From an uncultured Algibacter sp. (GTDB taxonomy: Bacteria > Bacteroidota > Bacteroidia > Flavobacteriales > Flavobacteriaceae): 64,000 bases of DNA. Below the pieces are notes generated by a model that worked only from the letters and a program-made list of their open reading frames with translations, was not told the DNA's origin and ran no database searches. Shown here piece by piece: positions 2,265 to 56,864 of this stretch. Where the stretch lies: positions 62,001 through 126,000 of the forward strand of contig CANMZT010000013.1 in NCBI GenBank assembly GCA_947502405.1, written 5' to 3'. Each line of letters starts with the position of its first letter. Positions within the stretch are counted from its first letter, which is position 1. The translations under genes were made by a program, and so were the position numbers.

Positions 2265-2297
2265 TTTGGAAGTTTAAAAAATTCCACTTTATATTTG
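2265..2297 (+). promoter_or_regulatory. Strong Bacteroidetes promoter of the leader cassette
   Basis: TTTG at 2265-2268 and TATATTTG at 2290-2297 are separated by 21 bases, which fits the Bacteroidetes -33/-7 pattern. The predicted RNA would begin near 2304 with a 5' hairpin GCAGTT...AACTGC (2303-2324). Confidence 0.7.
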
Positions 2298-2325
2298 CAC
2301 CGCAGTTTTAAATAAACAACTGCTT

Positions 2326-2381
2326 GATTCCCGCTTTCGAGAGAATGACAATTTTAAATGAAACCTCTAGCGAGGAGTTAT
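2326..2381. repeat. Dispersed repeat, left flank of the leader cassette
   Basis: The sequence is GATTCCCGCTTTCGAGAG, then AATGACAA and ACCTCTAGCGAGGAG. It is a diverged copy of the same composite repeat seen at 2555-2611. The pair forms direct repeats around the leader ORF and terminator. Confidence 0.6.
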
Positions 2382-2413
2382 TTTTATAACTAATAATTAA
2401 AAAACTATAAGCC

Positions 2414-2494
2414 ATGTTGAAGCATTATATCGCATTTCAGGATTGGAGTTACGAACCGCAGGGTTTATGGCTCAGGCTTCGGTTTTTTCTGTAG
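2414..2494 (+). CDS. Candidate aromatic-rich leader peptide (26 aa)
   Basis: A short ORF with ATG at 2414 and TAG at 2492 follows the strong promoter at 2290. The 26-residue product starts MLKHYIAFQDW and is rich in aromatic residues: Tyr at 5 and 13, Phe at 8, 24 and 25, Trp at 11 and 19. Its last six codons form the 5' arm of a long stem that excludes the downstream terminator, as in amino-acid attenuators. No biosynthetic gene for aromatic amino acids follows; the next gene encodes a TPR protein. The ORF and structures are seen directly, while translation and attenuation are inference. Confidence 0.5.
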   Translation: MLKHYIAFQDWSYEPQGLWLRLRFFL

Positions 2495-2548
2495 ATTACT
2501 TTCCTCAGAAAAAAATCCGAAGCAGAACAAACTGTTTCGGATTTTTTT
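2476..2548 (+). promoter_or_regulatory. Candidate attenuator: antiterminator stem overlapping a terminator
   Basis: Segment 2476-2491 (GCTTCGGTTTTTTCTG) can pair with 2506-2523 (ending AATCCGAAGC). The same AATCCGAA (2514-2521) also pairs with TTCGGATT (2536-2543), followed by T residues, to make an intrinsic terminator. The two stems cannot form together, which is the arrangement of a transcription attenuator. The stop codon of the leader ORF directly follows the first arm. Confidence 0.55.
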
Positions 2549-2554
2549 ATTCCT

Positions 2555-2611
2555 AATTCCCGTTTTCACGGGAGTGACAAAATCAACAGAAACCTCTAAC
2601 GAGGAATCTTA
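2555..2611. repeat. Dispersed repeat, right flank of the leader cassette
   Basis: The sequence is AATTCCCGTTTTCACGGGAG, then TGACAA and ACCTCTAACGAGGAAT. It is a direct repeat of 2326-2381 and belongs to the REP-like family seen also at 13919, 43651 and 43705. Confidence 0.65.
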
Positions 2612-3308: not shown

Positions 3309-3476
3309 TGGGCGTAACCCCGCCAAAAAAGCGGGGTCGCGCTTTACGCTATATCTTTTTTGTACTGAACTTGTTTCAGCATCTCATCAAGTTAATTGCT
3401 AACATAATGTTTAGTCCATATAAGAAATAATACGTTTGCACAAAAAAGGATGCCGCTGCAATCGCTTACGCGGGTG
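3309..3476 (-). repeat. Dispersed structured element, copy B (inverted, expanded hairpin)
   Basis: On the minus strand the copy reads GCGATTGCAGCGGCATCC, then TTTTTT...AAAAAAGATATAGCGTAAAGC, then ACCCCGC...GCGGGGT and TACGCCC. The central loop is about 90 bases, far longer than in copies A, C and D. It takes up most of the 386-base gap between the TPR gene and the unknown pair; I see no gene in that gap. Confidence 0.72.
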
Positions 3477-3633
3477 TGTTTGCTGGTATAGTTCTTATTA
3501 TTAGTGTTCATTTAGTATCAATAAATCAATTGACAAAATCCTATTCTTTAAGGTTTTTAACTGTTTAGTAAATTAAATCTTATATAATTTTATTTTTTTA
3601 GAATTTTTACTACAAAAAAATGTGATCTATTCA

Positions 3634-13918: not shown

Positions 13919-13946
13919 GGATTCCTGCCTTCACAGGAATGACAAA
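13919..13946. repeat. REP-like palindrome GATTCCTGCCTTC...GGAATGAC
   Basis: A hairpin with arms ATTCCTG and CAGGAAT is followed by GACAAAA. The same element is found at 43651-43732 and in degenerate form at 2326, 2555 and 56456. Here it sits between tex and the deacetylase-family gene. Confidence 0.75.
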
Positions 13947-26408: not shown

Positions 26409-26486
26409 TTAATTCTTTTGTTTTTTACAGGTGTTAAATATAACATTGTTAGTTGAATTTTTAGCTGTTTTGTTACAATTGTACTG

Positions 26487-26588
26487 TGTTAAGGATAGAA
26501 GCGGCATCCTTTTTTGCTTTTCTGCAAAAAAGATATAGCGGATAGCCTGACCTTATAACGCCATAAGCGTTTTAAGGGAACACCCAAA
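26487..26588 (+). repeat. Dispersed structured element, copy C
   Basis: The copy runs from GTGTTAAGGATAGAAGCGGC through a hairpin (CCTTTTTTGC...GCAAAAAAGA) and ATATAGCGGATAGCC to GGAACACCCAAAG. It shares the AGCGGCATCC and GATATAGCGG blocks with copy B. It lies between divergent genes, just upstream of the bacilliredoxin promoter. Confidence 0.72.
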
Positions 26589-37730: not shown

Positions 37731-37834
37731 TGCGTTGGTCCCGATAGCTATCGGGAGCAGTGGAAATCCTTTTTGTGAGGCACGAATAAAAAGATTGCAA
37801 CGTAAAGCCCGACCCCTTGTGGGTAACGTCCAAA
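37731..37834 (+). repeat. Dispersed structured element, copy D
   Basis: TGCGTTGG is followed by the palindrome CCCGATAGCTATCGGG (37740-37755) and AGCAGTGGAAATCC. A hairpin CTTTTT...AAAAAG, then GTAAAGCCC and GTAACGTCCAAA come next. It ends four bases before the stop codon of hemJ. The extra palindrome is also in copy F. Confidence 0.75.
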
Positions 37835-43645: not shown

Positions 43646-43650
43646 CTATT

Positions 43651-43732
43651 GTCATTCCTGCGAAGGCAGGAATCCATATTATAAATTTAAGTTTCAATTA
43701 AAAAGATTCCCGCCTTCGCGGGAATGACAAAA
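43651..43732. repeat. Inverted pair of REP-like palindromes between hemC-hemD and hemE
   Basis: GTCATTCCTGCGAAGGCAGG (43651) and GATTCCCGCCTTCGCGGGAA, then TGACAAAA (43705-43732), face each other. Each can form a hairpin alone and the two can pair. They fall inside the heme gene run and the second ends just before the hemE start. Confidence 0.85.
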
Positions 43733-56334: not shown

Positions 56335-56864
56335 TGGAGGAATGCATCATCAAATCGCCTTTAGGGTTTACCAAAATTGTTGGTGATGTAAATGGAATAT
56401 CTTCTGTAACCGTTCTAAATACTTTAGACCTTTCCGAAGGAAAAACAACTGATTTGTCTTTCCCACGAAAGTGGGAATCTGAAGAAAAAATCACAGATAT
56501 TATTCCTGTTGAATTGGAAGATTGCGTGATGCAACTCAATGAATATTTTGAAGGTTCTCGTAAAGATTTCGACTTAAAATTAAATCCGAATGGAACTGAT
56601 TTTCAGAAAAAAATTTGGAAACTTCTGGAGTCTATCCCTTATGGAAAAACAACCTCATATTTAGAACTTTCAAAACAACATGGCGATGTAAAAGCGATTC
56701 GTGCTGTAGCTAATGCTAATGGTAAAAATCCACTTTGGATTATTGTGCCTTGTCATCGGGTTATAGGGAGCGATGGCTCGCTTACGGGTTATGCCGGAGG
56801 ATTGCATCGTAAAAAATGGCTACTGGAACATGAAAGCCCTTATAAACAGCAATCTCTTTTTTAA
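56334..56864 (+). CDS. ogt: Methylated-DNA--protein-cysteine methyltransferase
   Basis: The 176-residue repair protein moves alkyl groups from O6-alkylguanine to its own Cys. The active site is IIVPCHRVIGSDGSLTGYAGG (PCHR), and the DNA-binding region GTDFQKKIWKLLESIPYGKTTSY precedes it. The N-terminal domain contains SFPRKWESEEK at residues 42-52. This is the translation of a dispersed palindrome (56456-56480) and is not expected in the family, but it lies in a variable loop and keeps the frame. The gene starts inside the stop codon of the CBS-domain gene and ends right at the next gene. Confidence 0.93.
   Translation: MEECIIKSPLGFTKIVGDVNGISSVTVLNTLDLSEGKTTDLSFPRKWESEEKITDIIPVELEDCVMQLNEYFEGSRKDFDLKLNPNGTDFQKKIWKLLESIPYGKTTSYLELSKQHGDVKAIRAVANANGKNPLWIIVPCHRVIGSDGSLTGYAGGLHRKKWLLEHESPYKQQSLF
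56456..56480. repeat. REP-like palindrome inserted in frame within ogt
   Basis: GTCTTTCCCACGAAAGTGGG, then AATCT, has the arms TTCCCAC / GTGGGAA and matches the GATTCCC...GGGAATGAC family seen at 13919 and 43651-43732, with an altered end. It adds about eight residues to the N-terminal domain. Confidence 0.72.

Follow-up and report, generated by a model that had tools for sequence, protein, structure and literature searches.

A conserved leader-peptide attenuator ahead of TPR, RtcB and PrfH genes in an order of Bacteroidota, with faltering translation as its probable signal

The window, a stretch of 64,000 nucleotides from an uncultured Algibacter sp., carries a real and conserved attenuator cassette ahead of a gene for a TPR protein, and the same leader layout is shared by relatives in at least four families of one order. 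The cassette is likely to be a trp-type transcription attenuator that senses a failure of translation rather than the shortage of one amino acid. Through its leader, faltering protein synthesis probably turns on genes for RNA repair and ribosome rescue.

Layout, conservation and spread of the cassette

The elements listed in the initial annotation (promoter, 5' hairpin, leader ORF and both stems) are all present, within a few bases of where it had placed them (Table 1). The 26-codon ORF indeed encodes seven aromatic residues, and a Pfam TPR_19 match confirms that the next gene codes for a TPR protein. An extra arm, absent from that annotation, is arm A, which is able to pair with the start of arm B. 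The terminator arms (2509-2525 and 2532-2548) span 17 nt and are 94% complementary. The RNA folds more stably than any of 200 shuffles over positions 2300-2550 (z = -4.8), 2400-2531 (z = -4.2) and 2476-2549 (z = -6.1), and the hairpin at 2476-2523 is present in the MFE structure of 2400-2531. No terminator was listed by a simple scan of positions 1900-2800, despite the C:D stem there. Across the family, the promoter is followed by arm A (GAAGC), placed at the start codon of an ORF of 21-33 codons. This ORF contains a covarying hairpin and, near its end, arm B (GCTTCG); after it come arm C (CCGAAGC) and arm D (GTTTCGG), the latter followed by a U-run.

Table 1. Features of the attenuator cassette and its surroundings, in window coordinates
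Feature	Position	Strand	Basis
Promoter, TTTG (2265-2268) and TATATTTG (2290-2297) boxes	2265..2297	+	Read from sequence
5' hairpin GCAGTT/AACTGC, transcript start	2302..2323	+	MFE and centroid fold
Composite repeat copy 1, insertion in 5' UTR	2327..2376	+	Repeat comparison; none in relatives inspected
Arm A (AAGCC), directly 5' of leader start codon, potential partner of arm B	2409..2413	+	
Leader ORF, 26 codons, stop TAG (2492-2494)	2414..2494	+	Translation MLKHYIAFQDWSYEPQGLWLRLRFFL
Hairpin P1, within leader ORF	2446..2473	+	Folding; family covariation
Arm B (GGCTTCGG and 3' extension), leader ORF end	2475..2491	+	Folding
Antiterminator hairpin B:C	2476..2523	+	Folding; pairing conservation
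Arm C (ATCCGAAGC)	2515..2523	+	
Intrinsic terminator C:D; arm D GTTTCGGAT (2534-2542), U-run after	2509..2548	+	Folding, covariation
Composite repeat copy 2, between terminator and TPR gene	2556..2605	+	Repeat comparison
Putative regulated gene, 190-aa TPR protein, long C-terminal helix	2705..3277	+	Pfam TPR_19; AlphaFold2
ATTCCCG..TGACAA repeat	2327-2351, 2556-2580, 13921-13945, 43649-43673, 43706-43730, 56454-56478		Pattern search

The promoter boxes fit the flavobacterial TAnnTTTG box as described in PMC9723704. The pattern [AT]TnTTTGC[AG] occurs 34-131 nt 5' of the leader ATG in 69/76 loci (1.0 expected in shuffles), and a stricter two-box pattern fits 12/75 loci only. Likenesses of the 5' hairpin, CGCAG..CTGC or CGCAGAATT..AATTCGC, were seen by eye in some of 11 relatives inspected. 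Direct copies of a composite repeat, 78% identical to each other, do flank the cassette, and had been taken as a sign that it was moved as a block. The relatives inspected carry the cassette without these repeats, and the first half of the repeat, a palindromic ATTCCCG..TGACAA element, is dispersed in the window (six matches with at most three mismatches, 0.01 expected). Block transposition via the repeats is therefore unsupported, and the cassette was probably not moved by them. Four Flavo-1 RNAs (RF01705) also occur in the 64 kb, at 1433-1508, 3331-3479 (minus strand), 26484-26556 and 37742-37818, two of which flank the TerB-leader-TPR region.

The search of relatives for the leader ORF and stems that the initial annotation had proposed was run with the downstream gene recorded, and both ORF and stems proved to be conserved. 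At the DNA level, 44/299 family genomes gave matches to parts of the cassette. Of 301 relatives of the window TPR protein, the 80 best were taken; a regular expression detects arms B, C and D together with a leader ORF upstream of 74 of these loci, and the R2 covariance model, built from 60 leaders, matches 75/80, of which 35 contributed to the model and so match by construction. As to the five unmatched loci, the contig of L069 begins 74 nt before the TPR match, L070 is divergent, and L077, L118 and L121 have RtcB, nucleotidyltransferase and PrfH genes upstream, where the leader would fall beyond the fetched flank; a leader was found at L177, on a contig apparently matching that of L118.

The R1 covariance model, built from 44 leaders of <85% mutual identity, matches 53/397 family genomes with 56 hits, of which 40 were read; one of its matches, L166, was taken as false. 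R2 matches 65/346 genomes of the order (families f1, f5 and f13) and 26/345 genomes of the phylum, the latter in f1 and f5 only and all 26 in the same order. The 35 order and phylum R2 loci that were read (weakest E = 2e-5) have RtcB downstream in 34 cases and TPR in one. From the opposite direction, an RtcB query matches 47/196 order genomes, some of them via distant RtcBs only. A leader lies upstream on the same strand in 30/30 of the best RtcB loci (one per genome, 30 of the 47 genomes), one of them, L245, in a fourth family, f7. E values are 8.6e-5 or better for 29 of these 30 leaders; that of L259 is 0.0014, within the range of opposite-strand back-hits to the palindromic terminator (from 0.00025).

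Competing arms, leader peptides and the proposed switch

The attenuator identity of the cassette is borne out by its relatives, in which the ORF and the stems are kept and two helices covary. In the covariation tests, whose shuffles ignore relatedness and whose structure is drawn from the same sequences it is tested on, C:D is paired in 98.2% of cells over 60 leaders, with six doubly changed pairs and 0/500 shuffles as high. Two variable C:D pairs form in 66/68 leaders, compared with a mean of 49.1 and a maximum of 54 for swapped partners. The internal hairpin P1 covaries as well (score of 0.440 over 44 leaders; shuffles give 0.207 +/- 0.026 and slid pairings no more than 0.189), and in the window 4/6 aligned family pairs of P1 are formed, as judged by eye. 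B:C is paired in 95.5% of cells (17-54% slid) and is nearly invariant, its covariation being reached by 44/500 shuffles. A three-way covariation of the 3' extension of arm B, visible by eye between arm types, was set aside as indecisive: the extension pairs fully in 35/68 leaders vs 28.5 (maximum 37) with swapped partners. This count and that of the variable pairs used 68 of 71 leaders.

Arms A and B pair in 77.9% of cells, vs 26-47% slid and 76.1 shuffled, and their covariation is reached by 19/500 shuffles. Their duplex energies average -9.06 kcal/mol with the own partner, -7.99 with swapped and -4.39 with shuffled partners, as computed on 59/60 leaders (L170 dropped; rows kept for L046, L049, L160, L165 and L175, in which an arm is apparently misplaced). 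The own partner is better than the swapped one in 46/59 leaders, and A:B is weak in some. The control duplexes A:C, A:D and B:D stay within ~1 kcal/mol of shuffled ones. Matching changes are found, for example, as CTCGAAG:CTTCGAG (L104, L115), CACGAAG:CTTCGTG (L119) and CCGAAG:CTTCGG (L163). Terminator and antiterminator are mutually exclusive as in trp-type attenuation, with strong covariation in C:D and P1 only, and a short conserved in-frame ORF lies 5' of the intrinsic terminator.

The reading frame of the leader is likewise conserved. In the 60-leader set, 58/60 leaders are in frame, the exceptions being L020 (an artefact, wrong ATG) and L156 (real). Because 44/60 leaders of that set had been gathered with a filter demanding the frame, the unbiased counts are those of the model hits: an ATG-started frame runs through arm B in 38/40 R1 hits read (exceptions L156 and L166), and the frame is kept in 33/35 R2 loci (exceptions L197, out of phase, and L229, with a GTG start). 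At neither L156 nor L197 does a frame beginning with ATG stay in phase across arm B. Selection on the peptide itself is weak, with a pN/pS of 0.66 in frame vs 0.74 and 0.93 in the other frames (26 pairs). The leader stop is TAG in 31/57 dereplicated leaders (L156 included) vs 6/37 long window ORFs (Fisher p = 0.0002).

The conserved frame bears on a reading that dispenses with any translation sensor, in which the leader, once terminated, serves as a small RNA, or the operon is autoregulated by one of its products through binding to the leader. The strong promoter box and the 5' hairpin would suit it by giving a stable terminated transcript of ~250 nt. It leaves the frame through arm B in 38/40 and 33/35 model hits without an explanation, however, and a plain small RNA would have no role for a competing B:C hairpin. 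The first gene behind this leader is RtcB in some genomes and TPR in others, which disfavours a single autoregulating product, and we regard this reading as unlikely.

The composition of the leader peptides was counted on 56 dereplicated peptides, L156 being left out. Aromatic residues average 3.9 per 25.7 residues, so that the seven in the window are the maximum rather than the rule; Trp is absent from 40/56 peptides and Tyr from 13/56, and no conserved run of one amino acid is shared among the 56. The aromatic specificity suggested by the initial annotation, according to which a scarcity of Trp, Tyr or Phe would stall the leader ribosome and turn the gene on, is not upheld by these counts. 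Phe is present in 55/56 peptides and absent from one, which, like the seven aromatics among the 26 residues of the window peptide, speaks for such an attenuator, and a Phe bias may therefore exist. Some peptides that precede RtcB, e.g., MFRTNQNSTVGLPLMVVRLRGLVHS, contain a single aromatic residue. Furthermore, the genes identified downstream are those for TPR, RtcB, PrfH, nucleotidyltransferase and slipin proteins: TPR, RtcB or PrfH follow in 36/40 R1 hits read (TPR first in 22, RtcB in 13, PrfH-TPR in one) and in 35/35 R2 loci. In the window, the genes from TPR onward are TPR, two unnamed ORFs, a kinase-like gene and an inositol-phosphatase-like gene. Aromatic attenuation is rejected on both grounds, peptide composition and the genes identified downstream, and has become most improbable.

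A recurring peptide end, LR-x-[FY] (often RLR), could alternatively arrest the ribosome together with a drug or a metabolite and set the switch. The recurrence of LR with an aromatic residue two positions on would fit, as would the likeness of RLR to the +x+ motif of erm leaders. Against this, the LR codons are part of arm B, so that RNA pairing alone explains LR, and the residue after LR varies (D, G, A, N, K and others). A stall at LR would, moreover, cover B and favour termination. Nascent-peptide arrest is thus quite unlikely.

In the favoured trp-type attenuator, arm A sits at the leader start region and arm B at the ORF end, while C and D make up the terminator; the four would compete as A:B, B:C (antiterminator) and C:D (terminator). 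Normally, the ribosome would reach the leader stop and cover B, letting C:D pair and transcription end. In times of trouble, a ribosome that initiates and then crawls or stalls within about the first 15 codons, owing to drugs, damaged rRNA, or cleaved or uncharged tRNA, would leave B free. Arm B would then pair with C, the terminator would come late, and the operon would be transcribed, yielding RtcB ligase, PrfH release factor, nucleotidyltransferase, TPR protein, slipin and often tRNAs. In folding of transcripts ending before D, B:C forms with a probability of 0.995-0.997 when the ribosome is absent or sits at codons 1, 5, 10 or 14, and this probability is 0 when it sits at codon 20, at codon 23 or on the stop; from this dependence on ribosome position, we infer that finishing the leader means termination and an early stall readthrough. 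In the full RNA at equilibrium, C:D is at or above 0.94 in all ribosome states. Since equilibrium favours C:D in every state once D is made, the decision would have to be kinetic, as in trp. The ribosome-free state could be either ON or OFF in this model, because A:B could form before C is made. General translation trouble is the suggested signal, since it would halt ribosomes early regardless of the codon, and the RtcB, PrfH and tRNA cargo fits.

Genes and tRNA arrays behind the leader

The initial annotation had called the cassette an orphan, with a TPR gene next to it; this gene is in fact a usual partner of the leader, which in other genomes stands before RtcB and PrfH. Two types of operons are found. 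The first reads leader-RtcB-(nucleotidyltransferase)-PrfH-TPR, and in leader-RtcB operons a charged protein of ~225-260 aa often precedes RtcB. The second reads leader-TPR-(0 to 16 tRNA genes)-slipin-RtcB and includes a second RtcB type. PrfH passes the NCBIfam model TIGR03072 (221.7 vs 166.65 bits); the RtcB proteins match Pfam RtcB (PF01139) but stay below the NCBIfam RtcB cut-offs. Besides L166, three R1 hits lack TPR, RtcB and PrfH in the stretch read. The next gene at L156 encodes 472 aa and looks, by eye, like the PcfJ-domain protein of L162, and a Band 7/slipin gene lies downstream at L173. The third, L170:568-707, is a leader with a shortened terminator and is possibly a remnant.

The window genome gave no RtcB match and no PrfH above the cut-off, and no tRNA gene is found in the 64-kb window. 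Judging from the gene order, the TPR gene alone would be driven by the switch in this genome, a form that may derive from a larger operon. The AlphaFold2 model of the TPR protein (pLDDT 91.3, pTM 0.80) is all-helical, with a last helix at residues 139-189. A fold search with this model returned generic TPR proteins (consensus TPRs, MamA, PilF), and a sequence search of the PDB was likewise generic. The TPR proteins of L044-L123 have lysine-rich tails or an NWFxNRLNxLL-like end, as in the window. At L052:3854-5136, two more degenerate leader copies stand ahead of a LytTR protein (PF04397) whose first ~30 residues look, by eye, similar to the N-terminus of the TPR protein.

Of the 80 TPR loci, 34 have same-strand tRNA genes downstream (171 tRNAs, up to 16 per locus); these cases are not independent, since the 80 include many close relatives. 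The flanks covered reach 3 kb at most, some being shorter, and in them no tRNA gene occurs upstream (0/80 loci) or, on the other strand, downstream. In 6/7 arrays examined, the first tRNA begins ~35-190 nt after the TPR gene with a simple test showing no terminator in between; the exception is L118, where the TPR gene is separated from the tRNAs by terminators and a second leader. Arrays downstream of the TPR gene are seen at L059, L060, L054, L064, L081, L050 and others. An encoded CCA is absent from 75/76 tRNAs in seven arrays, some array tRNAs have odd anticodons (Tyr ata, Asp atc), and a hairpin like AATCGGCAAAC..GTTTGCCGATT lies ahead of four arrays.

A second type of leader ORF, of 40-42 codons, stands directly ahead of tRNA arrays at L077, L109, L118, L120, L121, L261 and L267, as exemplified by L118:4600-4803; L118 and L121 are identical across this stretch. 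Its arms are AGGAAGGT / GCACCTTCC / GAGGTGC, and those of L267 are AGGGAG / GCACCTCCC / GAGGTGC, B and C being altered together. The coordinates of L261 and L267 place them immediately past the RtcB operons of L164 and L158. A model of this second attenuator, R3, matches 20/249 genomes; among seven hits examined, tRNAs are present in two (L261 and L267) and absent from five. Tentatively, and with somewhat less than even confidence, the order may keep reserve tRNAs and RNA-repair enzymes under two leader-peptide attenuators that sense stalled translation. The window type would stand before TPR-tRNA-slipin-RtcB or RtcB-PrfH-TPR, and the 40-42-codon type before tRNA arrays (seven loci). If so, damage to ribosomes or tRNAs would itself free replacement tRNAs and repair enzymes.

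Relation to known systems

Classical trp, phe and his attenuators combine a leader ORF with competing 1:2, 2:3 and 3:4 arms. The window family resembles them, and the Bacteroid-trp leader (RF01692), in its leader ORF and competing arms; unlike amino-acid attenuators, it has no conserved run of regulatory codons and no biosynthetic gene identified downstream. A search with RF01692 gave no match, either at the gathering threshold or at E up to 1. Assignment to a known RNA family was discarded: 13 Rfam hits were all below threshold, eight of them on the opposite strand, including Phe_leader on the opposite strand with 24.1 of the 55 bits needed and Thr_leader on the same strand with 18.7 of 55.

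The gene set itself has been described. Burroughs and Aravind reported in 2019 (PMC6514570) that RFH (PrfH)-RtcB operons have accreted TPR and Pol-beta nucleotidyltransferase genes, and the operons found here share this set, including the TPR gene and the charged proteins; the parts of that paper on these operons say nothing of a leader or of regulation, nor of a stand-alone TPR gene or trailing tRNA arrays. RtcB2-PrfH is reported to protect E. coli from colicin E3 (PMC9223846). In the Anabaena trn operon, a silent tRNA array, rtcB and a slipin gene are described as being under one regulator, the repressor TrcR, and trn and rtcB have been linked to antibiotic translational stress (PMC10272220). 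TrcR is, however, a protein repressor described as acting on several loci, whereas the window family has an RNA attenuator inside the operon. The rtcBA operon under RtcR is likewise an RtcB repair operon, with a control tied to damaged tRNAs; RtcR differs in being a protein activator, and the opening of the PMC7790460 abstract mentions no leader peptide.

In the portions of the open-licence literature searched, no flavobacterial leader of rtcB, prfH, TPR or tRNA arrays was found, and the main text of the attenuator and RNA-motif papers checked mentions neither rtcB nor TPR. A transcriptome of F. psychrophilum is described as comprising 64 structured 5' regions, with leader-peptide attenuation for amino-acid operons, and a leader of the window type may be among these 64. 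The described control of bacterial RNA repair involves the proteins RtcR and TrcR, and a leader peptide in P. aeruginosa. An RNA switch that recurs ahead of RtcB-PrfH and tRNA arrays would reveal how a whole order senses damage to its ribosomes or tRNAs, and the leader would provide a ready reporter for translation stress. The uncharacterised TPR protein could have a repair role, possibly as a rescue factor kept where RtcB and PrfH are absent.

The closest known system appears to be that same leader, PA5471.1 of P. aeruginosa, ahead of armZ-prfH. Its complete translation is reported to form the terminator, and a stall caused by drugs, or by the loss of Cca (the CCA-adding enzyme), to allow readthrough; its third and fourth codons (Gln, Phe) matter (PMC12057347, PMC13041342). 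As described there, it shares with the window family a constitutive promoter, a leader ORF of small size, competing segments that include a 3:4 terminator and, on the mechanism proposed here, a switch turned on by early stalls, as well as an RtcB-like gene (armZ, PA5471) adjoining prfH (PA5470). A leader before rtcB-like and prfH genes is found in the family, not in the window genome. The likeness is one of description, and the output described for PA5471.1 is the MexXY pump through ArmZ. The window family differs further in having arm A on the leader start, in a cargo that includes TPR, slipin and tRNA genes, and in its recurrence across an order of Bacteroidota.
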